Shown piece after piece: positions 1,861 through 56,765 of a stretch of DNA of 64,000 nt. The notes under the pieces were generated by a model that searched no databases, was not told where the DNA came from, and saw only the letters and a program-made list of their open reading frames with translations. The translations under genes were made by a program, and so were the position numbers. The stretch comes from Nocardioidaceae bacterium (GTDB lineage Bacteria > Actinomycetota > Actinomycetes > Propionibacteriales > Nocardioidaceae), in contig WQZX01000006.1 of NCBI GenBank assembly GCA_009780515.1, positions 1 through 64,000 on the forward strand, given 5' to 3'. Positions within the stretch are counted from its first letter, which is position 1. Each line of letters begins with the position of its first letter.

Positions 1861-1932
1861 TGGGTGATACTGGGTTCGAACCAGTGACCTCTTCGGTGTG
1901 AACGAAGCGCGCTACCACTGCGCCAATCACCC
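1861..1932 (-). tRNA. tRNA-Val (anticodon CAC)
   Basis: Reverse complement GGGTGATTGGCGCAGTGGTAGCGCGCTTCGTTCACACCGAAGAGGTCACTGGTTCGAACCCAGTATCACCCA; loop TTCACAC. Confidence 0.92.
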
Positions 1933-1947
1933 GTGCGGTGGTCGAGA

Positions 1948-2622
1948 TTAGCGCATCGACACCGGGCGTTCACATTCGGGGCGGCGGAGGATGCCGAGGG
2001 TGATGAGCAGCTGTGCGGCGATGTAGGTCGCCATCACGGTGAAGGACTGGAGGGCCGGGAGGCCGGAGGTGAAGGCGTCGAGCGCGATGAGGGCGTCGGA
2101 GACGAAGAAGAGCGCGCCGCCGGCCCCGGCGAGCGGGTGAACGCCGGTGCTGGTGAGGGCCATCGCGGTGAGGCAGCCGCCGTACACGACGACGGCGGGG
2201 GTCATCGCGCCCGCTCCGGGCAGGCAGACGACGACGAGAGCGAGGAACGCGGCGAGGTAGGCCGCTGTCCAGCCACGGCGCCGGTGGAGGACGCTGTGGC
2301 GCCGGTAGGGCCAGAAGGCCGAGATGTAGGTGACCTGGGCGAGCAGGAAGCACGCGATCATCGCCAGGAACGCCGGGTCGCCGCCGAGAAGACGCGGGGC
2401 GGTGTCGCCGAGCCAGGAGAAGCCCAGGGCGAGCAGCAGCGCACGGACCAGGCGAGGGCGGGGCCCGAGGGTCGCCGCCAGCACGAAGAGCACCAGCGCC
2501 GGCATCAGCAGCACCTGGCTGGCGTCCGCCAGCGTGTGCGCGTGGACGAGCTGTGCCGTCAGGTGGACGACCGAGACGACGAGGTACGCCGCGAGCGCGA
2601 CTCGGGCGCGGGTGCTGGTCAC
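1948..2622 (-). CDS. lysoplasmalogenase (YhhN/TMEM86-like membrane protein)
   Basis: Multi-TM ORF with LGFSWLGDTAPRLL and FLLAQVTYISAFWPYRR, typical of YhhN family. Confidence 0.75.
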   Translation of the reverse strand: MTSTRARVALAAYLVVSVVHLTAQLVHAHTLADASQVLLMPALVLFVLAATLGPRPRLVRALLLALGFSWLGDTAPRLLGGDPAFLAMIACFLLAQVTYISAFWPYRRHSVLHRRRGWTAAYLAAFLALVVVCLPGAGAMTPAVVVYGGCLTAMALTSTGVHPLAGAGGALFFVSDALIALDAFTSGLPALQSFTVMATYIAAQLLITLGILRRPECERPVSMR

Positions 2623-3320
2623 CCGCGGATCATCTCGTGCTCACGGGTGCGCCACGTCTCGAGGACCCTGCGTGTCACAGGTCCCGGGACCGGCAGGTCG
2701 CGGTCGTCCCATCGGTGGACGGGCTGGACCGTCCGGATGCTCGAGGTCAGGAAGACCTCTTCGGCCGAAGCGCAGACCTCCAACGGCTCGTCGACCTCGC
2801 GGGCGCCGTACCAGTCGAGGACGAGGTGCCGGGTGACGCCGGGCAGGCAGCCGCTGGCGAGGGTCGGCGTGCGCAGCTCGCCGTCGACGACGTAGAAGAC
2901 ATTGGCGCCGGTGCCCTCGCAGACGTTGCCGGCCGCGTTCGCGAGCACGCACTCGCCGGCTCCGCGGGCGACGGCGTGCCGCAGCGCGACCACGTTGTCG
3001 GCGTACGCCGTGGTCTTGTGGCCTACGAGCGGTCCGTGCTCGTTCAGGCGCCACGGAGCGGTGACGACGGCGATGCTCTCGGCCGGCGGTGGCGTCGGTG
3101 CCGGTGTGATCGCGAGGTCGCCGCCGGCGGCGGTGACACGGACGCGTCCGAGGGGGAGTGGGTCGCGGGCGAGCACGTCGATCAGCCGCCGCCGAACGTC
3201 GGCGACGTCGAGCGTGGCGAGCCCCGTGGCCGCTGCGGAGCGCTCGAGCCGGGCGAGGTGGAGGTCGAGCGCGAACGGTTGCCCACCCACCACCCGGACG
3301 GTCTCGAACAGGGCCTGCAC
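2619..3320 (-). CDS. aminotransferase class IV (aminodeoxychorismate lyase-like)
   Basis: FETVRVVGGQPFALDLHLARLERSA..., KTTAYADNVVALRHAVARGAGECVLANAAGNVCEGTGANVF motif. Confidence 0.85.
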   Translation of the reverse strand: MQALFETVRVVGGQPFALDLHLARLERSAAATGLATLDVADVRRRLIDVLARDPLPLGRVRVTAAGGDLAITPAPTPPPAESIAVVTAPWRLNEHGPLVGHKTTAYADNVVALRHAVARGAGECVLANAAGNVCEGTGANVFYVVDGELRTPTLASGCLPGVTRHLVLDWYGAREVDEPLEVCASAEEVFLTSSIRTVQPVHRWDDRDLPVPGPVTRRVLETWRTREHEMIRG

Positions 3321-3444
3321 GCGGGCAACTCTAGGGTGACGACGCCCCGAACTCCGACCCCGTTTTGGTGGTCTCCTGGGGATCGGCTAGTGTTCTCAAC
3401 CGCACCGGCAAACCGGTCCGAAAGGGCCGAGAAGCAGGTGCGAT

Positions 3445-3517
<73 letters not shown>

Positions 3518-3563
3518 CTGAGTGGTCAGACCACTGGCTGACCCAGGCCAGGTAGACCACCGC

Positions 3564-3634
3564 GGTGGGTTGGCCGAGAGGCGAGGCAACGGACTGCAAA
3601 TCCGTGTACACGGGTTCAAATCCCGTACCCACCT
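3564..3634 (+). tRNA. tRNA-Cys (anticodon GCA)
   Basis: GGTGGGTTGGCCGAGAGGCGAGGCAACGGACTGCAAATCCGTGTACACGGGTTCAAATCCCGTACCCACCT. Confidence 0.95.
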
Positions 3635-3653
3635 CGCTACAACTCAACAGCTA

Positions 3654-3725
3654 GGGCGATTGGCGCAGCGGTAGCGCGCTTCCTTGACACGGAAGAGGTC
3701 ACTGGTTCAAACCCAGTATCGCCCA
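3654..3725 (+). tRNA. tRNA-Val (anticodon GAC)
   Basis: GGGCGATTGGCGCAGCGGTAGCGCGCTTCCTTGACACGGAAGAGGTCACTGGTTCAAACCCAGTATCGCCCA. Confidence 0.95.
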
Positions 3726-22430: not shown

Positions 22431-22844
22431 GTGAAGCAGATCGTGCCGTGGCTCTGGATCCTTGCGATCGCGATCGTCTTCTGGCTCCTCTTCGTGCGGC
22501 CCGCGAGCCGTCGGCAGGCCGAGACGGCGAAGCTCCAGCGCAGCATCGAGGTCGGTGACGAGGTCGTCCTGACCTCGGGCGTCTTCGGGAGGGTCGTGGA
22601 GCTCACCGACGACCACGTCGGCGTCGAGATCGCCGCGGGCGTCGTGATCCGGGTGCTCCGGGGCGCGATCGGCTCCAAGCTCGACCGCGACGCCGAGCGC
22701 GCCGACGACCAGACCGACGACCAGACCGACGACCAGACCGACGACCAGACCGACGAGGGCGGCGACACGCCCGCAGCCGCCGACGACACGGCCGCGACGG
22801 CCGACACCACCGACGACCCCGACGTCGTCGACGGAGAGGACTGA
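22431..22844 (+). CDS. yajC: preprotein translocase subunit YajC
   Basis: VKQIVPWLWILAIAIVFWLLFVRPASRRQAETAKLQRSIEVGDEVVLTSGVFGRV. Confidence 0.9.
   Translation: MKQIVPWLWILAIAIVFWLLFVRPASRRQAETAKLQRSIEVGDEVVLTSGVFGRVVELTDDHVGVEIAAGVVIRVLRGAIGSKLDRDAERADDQTDDQTDDQTDDQTDEGGDTPAAADDTAATADTTDDPDVVDGED
22704..22754 (+). repeat. 12-bp in-frame tandem repeat (GACGACCAGACC x4) in yajC
   Basis: Four perfect copies read directly; encodes DDQT x4. Confidence 0.95.
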
Positions 22845-26529: not shown

Positions 26530-28794
26530 ATGACCGAGGAACGCACCGCCCCGAGACCCTCGGCGGTGCGTGCCCGGCTGGCTCGGATGGGCAGCCGCAA
26601 CAGCGTCAACCCGGTGCTCGAGTCGCTGTTCCGCGCCGTACGCGCCAACCACCCGAAGGCCGATCTCGCGCTCCTCGAGCGTGCGTACACGACAGCCGAG
26701 CGGCTGCACGGCGATCAGATGCGCAAGAGCGGCGACCCGTACATCACCCACCCGCTCGCCGTCACGACGATCCTGGCCGGCATCGGGATGACCGAGACCA
26801 CGCTGGTGGCCGCCCTCCTGCACGACACGGTCGAGGACACGCCGTACACGCTGGAGCAGTGCCGCAAGGACTTCGGCGACGAGGTGGCACAGCTCGTCGA
26901 CGGCGTCACCAAGCTCGACAAGGTCGTGTACGGCGACAGCGCCGACGCCGAGACCATCCGCAAGATGATCGTCGCGATGTCGCGCGACATCCGGGTGCTC
27001 GTGATCAAGCTGGCCGATCGGCTGCACAACATGCGCACCCTGCGGTTCGTGAAGCCGTCCACGCAGGAGCGCAAGGCCCGCGAGACGCTCGACATCTACG
27101 CCCCGCTGGCCCATCGGCTCGGCATGAACACGATCAAGTGGGAGCTCGAGGACCTCGCGTTCGCGACGCTGCACCCCAAGATCTACGACGAGATCGTGCG
27201 GATGGTCGCCGAGCGGGCGCCGTCGCGCGACAGCTTCCTCGCCGAGGTGATCAACCAGGTCGAGGCCGACCTCCGCGAGGCGAAGATCAAGGCGACCGTG
27301 ACCGGTCGGCCGAAGCACTACTATTCGATCTACCAGAAGATGATCGTCGGCGGCCGCGACTTCTCCGACATCTACGACCTGGTCGGCATCCGCATCCTGG
27401 TCGAGCAGGACCGCGACTGCTACGGCGTCCTGGGCGTGCTGCACTCCCGCTGGAACCCGGTCCTGGGCCGGTTCAAGGACTACGTCGCGATGCCGAAGTT
27501 CAACATGTACCAGTCGCTGCACACGACGGTCATCGGTCCGCAGGGCAAGCCGGTGGAGATGCAGATCCGCACCTTCGCGATGCACCGCCGCGCGGAGTAC
27601 GGCGTCGCGGCGCACTGGAAGTACAAGGAGGACGGCCGCAACGGCCAGGACACCGACAAGCGCGGCGACCTGGACGACATGTCGTGGGTGCGCCAGCTGC
27701 TCGACTGGCAGAACGAGGTCGAGGACCCGGGGGAGTTCCTGGAGTCGCTGCGCTTCGAGATCAACCAGACCGAGACCTACGTGTTCACCCCGCGCGGCGA
27801 CGTCATCGCGCTGCCGAGCGGCTCGACCCCGGTCGACTTCGCGTACGCCGTACACACCGAGGTCGGGCACCACACCATCGGCGCCCGGGTCAACGGCCGG
27901 CTGGTGCCGCTGGAGTCCCAGCTGGAGAACGGCGACGTGGTCGAGGTCTTCACCTCCAAGGCGCCGACCGCCGGGCCGTCGCAGGACTGGCTGTCGTTCG
28001 TGAAGTCGCAGCGGGCGCGCTCGAAGATCCGCCAGTGGTTCACCAAGGAGCGTCGCGAGGAGGCGATCGACCACGGCAAGGACGCGATCGCCAAGCTGAT
28101 GCGCAAGGAGGGCCTGCCGCTCAAGCGCCTGCTGTCGCACGACTCGCTGTCCCAGGCCGCCGAGCAGTTCAAGCTCGCCGACGTCTCCGCCCTGTACGCC
28201 GCCGTCGGCGAGGGCAACCTGGGTGCGCAGACGGTGGTCCGCAAGGTCATCGAGATGCACGGCGGCGACCAGGGCGCGCAGGAGGATCTCGCCGAGGCCG
28301 TCACGATCACCGGCCGGCGCGGTCGTCCACGGGTCGCGAGCGGCGGCGACGTCGGGGTCATCGTCAAGGGTGCGCCGGACGTCTGGGTGAAGCTCGCGAA
28401 GTGCTGCACCCCCGTCCCTCCCGACGACATCCTGGGCTTCGTGACCAAGGGCGGTGGAGTCTCGGTGCACCGCAAGGACTGCACCAACGCCGCCAGCCTG
28501 CTCGGTCAGCCCGAGAAGGTCCTCGACGTCGAGTGGGCGCCCACCGGCCAGTCGACGTTCCTGGTCAACATCCAGGTCGAGGCGCTGGACCGCTCCCGGC
28601 TGCTCTCGGACATCACGCTGGTGCTCTCCGACGCCCACCTGAGCCTGATCTCGGCCAACCTCGCCACCTCCCGCGACCGGGTCGCCAAGATCCGGTTCAC
28701 CTTCGAGATGGCCGACTCCAAGCACCTCGACAACGTGCTGAACGCCGTACGGTCGGTGCCGGGGGTGTTCGACGTCTACCGGGTGACCGCCTGA
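26530..28794 (+). CDS. relA: bifunctional (p)ppGpp synthetase/hydrolase
   Basis: HD domain [11 protein letters not shown], synthetase [13 protein letters not shown]...[13 protein letters not shown] and ACT regions. Confidence 0.96.
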
Positions 28795-28795
28795 C

Positions 28796-28854
28796 CCGCG
28801 AGGCGTCACCTTTCCACGCCCCAGGCGTCAGGTCTCCACGGTCGAGACGTCACC
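28796..28854 (-). repeat. array of ~2.7 copies of a 22-bp repeat (TGACGCCTnGnGCGTGGAnAnn family)
   Basis: Minus-strand reading TGACGTCTCGACCGTGGAGACC / TGACGCCTGGGGCGTGGAAAGG / TGACGCCTCGCGG.. Confidence 0.85.
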
Positions 28855-29767
28855 AACGGCGCGGCGAGTACGTCGGAACCAGCGCGGCCCGCACCTGCCG
28901 GAGCCACTGGTCGAGTCGCGCCGGCGCGAAGTCACCCTTGCGTACGACGATCACCGTCCAGTGATTCTCACGCAGCCACCCCCGGCGGTCCTCGTCGTGC
29001 TGCACCTGCTCCGGCGTCCGTTCGTGCGCATCGAACCCGTCGTACTCGATGCAGACGCGGTGGGCGACGTACGCGAAGTCGAGGCGGTACGTCGGGACGC
29101 CCGCGATCACGATCCAGTGCTGCGGCTCAGGCGCGGGCAGTCCGAAGTCGCGGATCGCGAGGAGCGTCCACGCCTCTCGTGGTGATTCGAGGCGATCGTC
29201 CACCAAGGGGATCAGCTGGCGCAGCTGGATCACGCCGCGACGACCTCGGAAGCGGGCCAGCTGTCCGGCCAGCAGGCGGGGGTCGACGGCGTGGGCGCGG
29301 GCGAGGCCGCAGAGGGCTGCGTACGCCTCGCGGCGCCGGAGGTTGCAGCCGAGATCCAGCGCCGTCCGGACCGGAGTCGTGCAGGCGATGCCGTCGACGT
29401 CGACGACGTCCGTCGCGCGGAGATCACGAGAGCCGCCGCGGCACACGCGCTGGCGGGAGCGTGTGCCACCGCGCAGGACGCAGATCTCGACCTGCGGCCC
29501 GGTCGCGAGCTCGGCGGTGGTGTAGCAGTCGACCCCGAGCAACCAGGCAGCGGTTCGGTCCACGATCACCTGGTTGGCGCCTACGACCAGCCGCAGCGCC
29601 GCGACGCGGAGATCGAGGGAGTCCTCGACGGTCGCGTCGACGTACACGTTGCGAAGGATGCGGCGTACGCCGCCGTGCGCGAGGAGCCGGTCGAGTCGTC
29701 CCCTGCTCAGGCCGACGTCGGGCAGCTGACGGGTGGTGAACGGGCGACCCGAACCGACGAGTTCCAT
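28850..29767 (-). CDS. DUF559 / Vsr-fold nuclease-like protein with N-terminal AbiEi-like wHTH region
   Basis: C-terminal YRLDFAYVAHRVCIEYDGFDAHERTPEQVQHDEDRRGWLRENHWTVIVVRKGD; N-terminal RQLPDVGLSRGRLDRLLAHGGVRRILRNVYV; start chosen at MELVGSGRP because the longer ORF runs into the repeat array. Confidence 0.72.
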   Translation of the reverse strand: MELVGSGRPFTTRQLPDVGLSRGRLDRLLAHGGVRRILRNVYVDATVEDSLDLRVAALRLVVGANQVIVDRTAAWLLGVDCYTTAELATGPQVEICVLRGGTRSRQRVCRGGSRDLRATDVVDVDGIACTTPVRTALDLGCNLRRREAYAALCGLARAHAVDPRLLAGQLARFRGRRGVIQLRQLIPLVDDRLESPREAWTLLAIRDFGLPAPEPQHWIVIAGVPTYRLDFAYVAHRVCIEYDGFDAHERTPEQVQHDEDRRGWLRENHWTVIVVRKGDFAPARLDQWLRQVRAALVPTYSPRRW

Positions 29768-29837
29768 GACGTGAGGCTGCCGCGCGGCGGGACCAGGAGC
29801 CAGGGCCCGGTGCCTGCCTGTGGATAACCCGCGCTCA

Positions 29838-29942
29838 AGTGACGCCTCGGGCGTGCAGACCTGACGCCTCAAGCGTGGAGAGGTGACGCCTCGGGCGTGC
29901 AGACCTGACGCCTCGGGCGTGGAGAGGTGACGCCTCGGTCAG
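29838..29942 (+). repeat. array of ~4.7 copies of the 22-bp repeat
   Basis: TGACGCCTCGGGCGTGCAGACC / TGACGCCTCAAGCGTGGAGAGG / TGACGCCTCGGGCGTGCAGACC / TGACGCCTCGGGCGTGGAGAGG / TGACGCCTCGGTCAGG. Confidence 0.95.
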
Positions 29943-31165
29943 GAGAAGTCGGCAGAGGCCCGCTTGGCCATCTCCAGGAACGACCGGCGGCCCTCGAGGT
30001 TGTCCTCGAGCTCACGGACCCGCTTGGCGTCACCGGCGGCTCGAGCCTTGTCCAGCTTGGCCTCGGCCTCGGCGATGGCGGCCTCGAGCTTGGCGACCAT
30101 GTCGTCGGCACGGGCGGACTTCTCGGGGTCGGTGCGCTTCCACTTGTCGTCCTCGACCTTCCGGATCGCCTGCTCGACGGCACGCATGCGGCCCTCGAGC
30201 TCCTTGATCCGGTCGCGCGGCACCTTGCCGGCGGCGTCCCAGCGGTCGGCGAGGTCGCGGAAGGCGGCCTTGGCGGCGGCGAGGTCGGTGACGGGCACGA
30301 GCTTCTCGGCCTCGACCAGCAGCTGCTCCTTCACCGTGGCGTTGGCGGCGAACTCCTCGTCGAGCGCGGAGTTGGCGGCGTCGCGTGCGCCGAAGAAGGT
30401 GTCCTGCGCGCCGCGGAAGCGGGCCCAGAGCTGGTCGTCGATGCCCTTGGGCGCCGGGCCGGCGGCCTTCCACTGCCGCATCAGCTCGCGGTAGCGGCCG
30501 GCGGTCGGGCCCCAGTCGGTCGAGTCGGCGATCTTCTCGGCCTCGGTCGCCAAGCGCTCCTTGACCACCTGGGCGTCGGCCCGCTTGGCGTCCTGCTCGG
30601 CGAAGTGCGCCTTGCGCGCCTTGGTGTACGCCGAGCGCGCGGACGAGAACCGCTTCCAGAGCGCGTCGTCCACGGCGCGCTCGAGCCGCGGCAGCTGCTT
30701 CCACTGCTCGAGCAGCTCGCGCAGCCGGTTCGCGCCGCCCCGCCAGTCGCGCCCGCCGGCGATCTTCTCGGCCTCGGCGGCCAGGCGCTCCTTGGCCTCG
30801 CGCGACTCGGTGCTGCGCTGCGCCTTCTCGGCCTTGCGGGTCTCGCGCTGGGTTGCGATCACGGGACCCAGCTCATCGAGGCGTGCCGCGAGCGCGGCGA
30901 GATCGCCGACGGCGTTGGCGTCGGTCACCTGCTCGCGCACGGTCTTGATCGCGGCGGTCGCCTCCTCGGGCGACAGCAGCGCCGACGAGACCCGCTTGTG
31001 CAGCAGGTCCACCTCGAGCGCGAGCGCGTCGTACCGCTTGGTGTAGAAGGACAGAGCCTCGTCGGCCGTCACGTCCGGCACCTGTCCGACGGCCCTCTCG
31101 CCGTCGCCCGTCTTGACGTAGACGGTGCCGTCAGTGTCGACGCGTCCCCAGTCGGAGGTAGTCAC
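29939..31165 (-). CDS. DUF349 domain-containing protein
   Basis: Repeated ~75-aa modules (AEAEKIAGGRDWRGGANRLRELLEQWKQLPRLER..LWKRFSSARSAYTKAR); start VTTSDWGRVDTDGTVYV. Confidence 0.85.
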   Translation of the reverse strand: MTTSDWGRVDTDGTVYVKTGDGERAVGQVPDVTADEALSFYTKRYDALALEVDLLHKRVSSALLSPEEATAAIKTVREQVTDANAVGDLAALAARLDELGPVIATQRETRKAEKAQRSTESREAKERLAAEAEKIAGGRDWRGGANRLRELLEQWKQLPRLERAVDDALWKRFSSARSAYTKARKAHFAEQDAKRADAQVVKERLATEAEKIADSTDWGPTAGRYRELMRQWKAAGPAPKGIDDQLWARFRGAQDTFFGARDAANSALDEEFAANATVKEQLLVEAEKLVPVTDLAAAKAAFRDLADRWDAAGKVPRDRIKELEGRMRAVEQAIRKVEDDKWKRTDPEKSARADDMVAKLEAAIAEAEAKLDKARAAGDAKRVRELEDNLEGRRSFLEMAKRASADFS

Positions 31166-56168: not shown

Positions 56169-56765
56169 TCAGTTCTGGCTGTTGCCGTCGCCGGAGCCCG
56201 AGCCGCTCTGGCTGTTGCCGTCGCCCGAGCCCGAGCCGCCCTGGCTGTCGTCGTCGCCGGAGCCCGAGCCGCCCTGGCTGTCGTCGTCGCCCGAGCCCGA
56301 GCCGCCCTGGCTGTCGCCGTCCTGGCTGTCGCCGGAGCCGGAGGGGTGCTGGGTGGTGTGGTGCGGGGCCTGGTGGTGCGCGGCAGGGGCAGGCGCGGAG
56401 CCGCCTTGGTCGTTGCCGTCCTCACCCTGGTCGTCGGACCCGGCGCCCGTGCCCTGGTCGTTGTTGCCGTCGGCGCCCGGGGCGGTGCTGGGGTCAGGGT
56501 TGTCGCCCTCGGTGTCCTGCGGCGCGGGGTTGTCGCCCTCGGTGTCCTCCGGCGCGGGGGTGTCCCCCTCGGTGTCAGCAGGGCCGTTGCCCTGGTCGTC
56601 TCCCGGCGCTGCGGTGGGTGTGGTGGTGGCGGTGGGGACCGTGGTGCTCGGGGCCGGCTGGCGCGACGGGGTGGCGGCCTGGACCGCGTACGCGCCGCCG
56701 AGAGTGCCGATGAGGATCGCGGTCGTGCCGGCGGCGACCTGGAAGGCGGAGAGCTTGCGCATCAT
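56169..56765 (-). CDS. secreted, acidic, repeat-rich disordered protein
   Basis: Signal MMRKLSAFQVAAGTTAILIGTLGGAYAVQAA; DTEGD(N/T)PAPxD and DSQGGSGSGDD repeats. Confidence 0.65.
   Translation of the reverse strand: MMRKLSAFQVAAGTTAILIGTLGGAYAVQAATPSRQPAPSTTVPTATTTPTAAPGDDQGNGPADTEGDTPAPEDTEGDNPAPQDTEGDNPDPSTAPGADGNNDQGTGAGSDDQGEDGNDQGGSAPAPAAHHQAPHHTTQHPSGSGDSQDGDSQGGSGSGDDDSQGGSGSGDDDSQGGSGSGDGNSQSGSGSGDGNSQN
56173..56335 (-). repeat. ~33-bp tandem repeat encoding DSQGGSGSGDD
   Basis: Four degenerate copies of CTGGCTGT(T/C)G(C/T)CGTCGCC(G/C)GAGCCCGAGCCGC(C). Confidence 0.88.

Follow-up and report, generated by a model that had tools for sequence, protein, structure and literature searches.

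For dispersed REP-type repeats, the dedicated partner enzymes that are known are the RAYT proteins; none is known for other REP classes, and the spread of such repeats is poorly understood (PMC3733652, PMC8266576). The locus analysed here lies in a window of 64,000 nucleotides (the whole stretch of DNA that was studied) and had been proposed to show a REP/RAYT-like layout built around a different enzyme. This description held: the repeats are dispersed and flank the enzyme gene, whereas neither an HUH enzyme nor a REP tag was found. As in REP/BIME (REPIN)-RAYT systems, the repeats are mostly intergenic, palindromic and present in tens of copies with sites at gene ends, one dedicated enzyme gene is flanked by the same repeat family (37 of 43 close homologs), copies lacking the gene go along with the enzyme within a genome, and inverted units are paired. 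Unlike a RAYT (TnpA-REP), the enzyme is an AbiEi-like/Vsr-like nuclease and not an HUH Y1 transposase of the IS200/IS605 type, and unlike REPs, the repeats form phased tandem arrays of 22 or 32 bp rather than single hairpins with a GTAG or CGTC tag.

The ends of Tn7 are inverted and built of repeated 22-bp sites, which are bound by TnsB and not by TnsA, a protein of the PD-(D/E)XK class. The locus resembles Tn7 in its inverted, repeated 22-bp sites and in the parallel with a nuclease of the TnsA class, but Foldseek matches to TnsA were insignificant (E 1.6-2.6), and no TnsB/C/D gene was seen at the nuclease locus. The catalytic fold is that of EDxHD (Vsr-like) homing endonucleases such as I-Bth0305I, with E198, D230, E241, H248 and D258 invariant; unlike those enzymes, the nuclease is associated with no intron or intein, each nuclease has multicopy repeats in place of a single cleavage site, and the repeats would spread, in contrast to single-site homing.

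The N-terminal fold is like that of the AbiEi antitoxins, such as Rv2827c and S. agalactiae AbiEi, which belong to type IV toxin-antitoxin systems. The DNA target of AbiEi is a pair of 23-bp inverted repeats, whose size matches the 22-bp unit found here, M. tuberculosis Rv2827c binds two pairs of 23-bp repeats with 10 bp of extra spacing, and AbiEi-type proteins autoregulate (PMC7319586). Unlike AbiE systems, the locus has no AbiEii/DUF1814 partner, its nuclease domain is fused, and its arrays, besides flanking the gene at either end, are dispersed in the genome. No equivalent system, and no paper dealing with both DUF559 and an inverted repeat, was found in the searchable open-access literature.

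The nuclease locus in the window

The features of the locus are as follows.

26530..28794, + strand: relA/spoT-type gene, left neighbour (ORF; RelA_SpoT, HD, TGS and ACT domains; its stop adjoins the left array)
28787-28852, - strand: left array, two full units and one partial unit running into the relA stop (unit scan and sequence)
28850..29767, - strand: nuclease gene, 305 aa (ORF; probable start ATG 29767; homologs start nearby)
28880..29185, - strand: Vsr/DUF559/MTES_1575-type nuclease domain, about residues 195-296 (Foldseek, Pfam, alignment)
29198..29767, - strand: AbiEi-like N-terminal part, about residues 1-190, presumed to bind the repeats (Foldseek, PADLOC, Pfam)
29818..29827, - strand: TTATCCACAG, DnaA-box-like motif between the right array and the nuclease start (motif count in homologs)
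29840-29938, + strand: right array, four full 22-bp units and one partial unit from 29928 (TRF and unit scan)
29939..31165, - strand: DUF349 gene, right neighbour (ORF, listed to 31249; DUF349 1.2e-52; its stop adjoins the right array)

Unit scan, TRF, shuffles and control positions confirmed that oppositely oriented arrays of a 22-bp unit, TGACGCCTCGGGCGTGNAGANN, lie on either side of the nuclease gene. In the right array the unit ends alternate between CC and GG, so that it doubles as a 44-bp repeat; TRF scored it 142 at period 22 and 186 at period 44. The right-array units at 29840, 29862, 29884 and 29906 and the partial unit at 29928 showed 0, 2, 0, 0 and 7 mismatches to the unit, and those of the left array (28831-28852, 28809-28830 and the partial 28787-28808) showed 3, 2 and 6, in agreement with the approximately 4.7 and 2.7 copies reported before. 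Two partial units aside, the best matches in the remainder of the window needed 5-7 mismatches. Pairing between the upstream and downstream flanks of the nuclease scored 40. The highest score among 30 dinucleotide shuffles was 17, and none of 486 control positions in the same window exceeded 29.

The coding ends also reach into the repeats, as had been noticed: the innermost left unit opens with the nuclease stop TGA (28852-28850), and the stop codon of the DUF349 gene (29941-29939) lies at the edge of the right array. Each array begins a few nucleotides past the stop codon of its neighbour, relA on the left and DUF349 on the right. Since these two genes are convergent and the arrays lie right behind their stops, the inversion around the nuclease amounts to the same orientation behind each neighbour. 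Elsewhere in the window, TRF reported a perfect 12-bp tandem repeat of 4.6 copies (22702-22756) and a 33-bp tandem repeat of 4.5 copies (56175-56321), and four tRNA genes, three of them clustered on the + strand, occupy 1861-3725.

The longest ORF of the nuclease gene begins at TTG 29872. An AlphaFold2 model built from an alignment of 37 homologs had a mean pLDDT of 92.5. The top Foldseek PDB match of the N-terminal part was the AbiEi antitoxin 6y8q (E 1.4e-4), and the nuclease domain matched the catalytic domain of I-Bth0305I (3r3p; TM 0.66 of that target, E 0.018). PADLOC assigned an AbiEi match to the nuclease (6.9e-8). On the window protein, Pfam DUF559 reached 20.3 bits against a curated cut-off of 20.6 and AbiEi_4 was weak and under its cut-off, and relatives matched DUF559 (5e-8), MTES_1575 (a Vsr-type REase; 1.3e-10) and AbiEi_4 (2.2e-9). 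The original prediction of an AbiEi-like N-terminus joined to a Vsr-type fold is thus supported by the model, by Foldseek and PADLOC, and by the Pfam matches of relatives. Twelve alignment columns were invariant in the 37 sequences, including S195, E198, Q216, D230, E241, H248, D258 and R261, so the nuclease active site appears to be under constraint, with residues that appear to be of the catalytic type.

The PADLOC AbiEi matches, together with the MTES_1575 Vsr-type domain, which has been described in conflict-system proteins (PMC3710099), would fit a defence or toxin-antitoxin-like locus, in which the nuclease would be directed against foreign DNA, with the arrays marking or buffering it on the host chromosome. 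However, no gene for a partner toxin or a methylase adjoins the nuclease, the neighbours being relA/spoT and DUF349. No defence system is known to include dispersed gene-less arrays, and we regard this explanation as very improbable.

Upstream of the nuclease, the heptamer TCCACAG, often inside TTATCCACAG, was present in 38 of 42 nuclease homologs (L057-L100) and downstream in none of the 42, against a background of 7 in 290 windows. Its distance to the start was mostly 48-61 or 81-86 nt, with larger values at genes whose start was probably placed too far downstream. The heptamer also occurs in a Kribbella-like clade (a name that is presumptive) whose nucleases are free of arrays, which makes it a feature of the nuclease gene and not of the arrays.

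Nuclease homologs and gene-less arrays in other genomes

In order to compare the locus across genomes, homologs of the nuclease and copies of its repeat were collected. A protein scan with one nuclease sequence returned one named relative, Nocardioides terrae, and from this match we infer that the compared genomes belong to Nocardioides. Inverted flanks scoring beyond the best of 30 dinucleotide shuffles were present at 37 of 43 close homologs and at 12 of 21 distant ones, and most nuclease loci had flank-pairing scores of 30-128, compared with the maximum of 29 at the 486 control positions of the window. The exceptions among the 43 were four loci of the Kribbella-like clade, the decayed locus L096, and L101, which is truncated on its 5' side. 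Since that clade has the nuclease and lacks arrays, arrays are not always needed by the nuclease. Close homologs lie mostly at junctions unrelated to relA-DUF349, yet they are flanked by inverted arrays, nearly all of them by their own; this bears out the association of the repeats with the nuclease family, and neither repeats that were common without such an association nor a gene fixed at one site in repeat-less relatives was encountered. In other families of the phylum, where about 28 homologs were sampled, roughly a third had inverted flanks and few had tandem arrays. The nuclease superfamily was present in 102 of 298 sampled Actinomycetota genomes.

Nuclease and repeat are paired lineage by lineage: the unit sequence differs from one nuclease lineage to the next, and the units have no tag in common. 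The arrays are phased, and among those scoring well the periods were quantised at 21-22 or 30-32 bp, two or three helical turns, with none in between. The period follows the nuclease tree (7 changes versus 17.4 when shuffled). By analogy, the 23-bp sites of AbiEi and the additional 10-bp spacing at Rv2827c sites may explain the 22- and 32-bp periods.

Gene-less arrays are dispersed through the genomes. That of the window carries further array loci on contigs C31, C40, C62, C66, C70 and C90. Searched as a pattern with at most one mismatch in 58 relatives, the window unit gave one match in each of two genomes only. The unit of the L064 nuclease was found in 71 copies in its own genome (G006) and in 0-6 copies in each of 36 others, the six copies in G001 resembling the related unit that G001 itself has; for the L070 nuclease, the unit was found in 89 copies in its own genome (G003) and in at most one in each of 36 others. 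Counting the repeats across genomes, as had been suggested, thus revealed that high copy numbers of each tested repeat are confined to the genome that encodes its cognate nuclease. In the sister species, 290 units were counted in G011 and 96 in G015.

Two further ideas concerning array structure were discarded. Perfect palindromes in the window's genome suggested that arms are homogenised in cis by fold-back copying; the identity comparison fails generally, arm identity being clearly higher within than between loci only in G000 (0.897 v 0.793) and not in G003 or G006. A general rule by which the element supplies the stop codon was ruled out, the flanking stops being TGA, TAA or TAG.

Array positions, junctions and enclosed genes

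Arrays usually begin a few nucleotides downstream of a stop codon. At 20 sites checked in G003 the polarity was always inward (20/20), and 10 of the 20 lay between convergent genes, with genes called approximately from third-position GC. Of 34 array ends in that genome, 14 start exactly 2 nt past a stop triplet, triplets being taken by letters so that a few may be chance. Some elements of G011 and G015 contain a hairpin at their centre, in which differences in one strand of the stem are compensated in the other (GAGTTGGCA/TGCCAACTC, GAGATGGCA/TGCCATCTC, GAGCTGGCA/TGCCAGCTC).

The relA-DUF349 junction was compared in 30 genomes, and array presence was found to vary: the junction is nearly empty (3-80 bp) in many relatives, filled by the nuclease in four including the window, and occupied by gene-less arrays in five. 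In three of four testable genomes the gene-less array best matched the flank of the resident nuclease; in the fourth it best matched the nuclease flank of a close relative, with that of its own genome second. With close homologs located elsewhere and the junction empty in many relatives, vertical inheritance at one fixed junction was rejected as the whole story. The junction looks as if it were a repeated insertion site. Genes of the AbiEi/DUF559 type occur in the relA-DUF349 region of several lineages with different arrays or none (L079, L082 and L084 of family f3, and L156, L160 and L176). At the distant homologs L156 and L176 (G002 and G034), which lie at the relA junction, no tandem arrays were found, so that reuse of the junction is not membership. 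At L163 and L175, in two genomes, the relA-DUF349 junction holds another palindromic repeat, of the GGTTGAGGAGCGAGCGCAGCGAGC...CTCGAAACC type.

Orthologous sites of the sister pair G011/G015 were filled in one species and empty in the other, conserved, or occupied by a different repeat family in each. The last situation applies to L305, L306 and L307 of G015 versus L289, L281 and L301 of G011, an apparent case of site reuse or overwriting.

These positions bear on the main alternative, which is that the protein is an AbiEi-like regulator that binds without mobilising anything: it would autoregulate at its own array, the dispersed arrays would serve as terminator or chromosome-organising sites produced by ordinary mutation, recombination and selection, and the nuclease domain would have another job. 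The repeat binding and autoregulation of AbiEi-type proteins (PMC7319586), the location of arrays at gene 3' ends, where convergent genes flank half of the sites in G003, and the compensated hairpins are all consistent with it. However, the nuclease-type residues are invariant, arrays lie on both sides of the gene, and units unrelated in sequence, which are dispersed in tens of copies in different species and can be missing at orthologous sites, would not easily arise if selection acted on regulation alone; hence we consider the regulator explanation unlikely.

Ordinary genes are enclosed by arms at L253 (1437-2571), L254 (1365-2459) and L317 (about 2102-3197); judged by reading their translations they are lipoprotein-like, endonuclease IV-like and DinB-like, and they are possible passengers. 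A nuclease for the second G015 repeat family (unit GCCGARWCTGYAGTTSTGGCG) was searched for and not found. Both observations would be expected if another enzyme spread the repeats and the nuclease gene merely preferred to insert into arrays. A passive hitch-hiker, however, should turn up in the arrays of any family, whereas array period and repeat change in step with the nuclease along the tree and gene-less arrays correspond to the flanks of the resident nuclease, which makes such hitch-hiking improbable, although less so than a defence role.

Proposed explanation and its significance

We therefore favour, as the probable explanation, a repeat-associated nuclease that binds its own phased arrays and probably propagates them; both the binding and the mobilisation of arrays by the nuclease are what we infer from the comparisons above. 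According to this proposal, the AbiEi-like part would occupy neighbouring 22-bp (or 32-bp) units along a single face of the helix, and DNA at or beside the arrays would be cut or nicked by the Vsr/homing-type domain. Repair or copying would then seed and extend arrays at new intergenic sites, and the nuclease gene and the gene-less arrays would spread jointly, as is thought for REP/BIME with RAYT transposases. Arrays might lie just past stop codons either because insertions there survive selection or because gene 3' ends are preferred. In the array loci compared we saw no transposition event, no target duplication and no exact insertion boundary, and we count against the proposal the sister-species sites with another family, the three ordinary genes enclosed by arms and the array-free Kribbella-like clade.

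A broader version, to which we give somewhat less than even credence, is that nucleases of the AbiEi-like/Vsr-like type, each paired with a helically phased repeat of its own, actively place new arrays at gene 3' ends and overwrite existing ones, taking along their own and sometimes other genes between the arms, without a known transposase.

What appears new here is that an enzyme of this class goes with this repeat architecture, and the function may prove convergent with that of REP/RAYT. If true, this would be a second, unrelated enzyme class with the REP/RAYT genomic signature and a convergent test case; because many cognate nuclease/repeat pairs occur in one genus, direct tests by exchange of specificities are possible. 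Some of the AbiEi/DUF559-type genes that are abundant but unexplained in Actinomycetota would thereby also gain a function.
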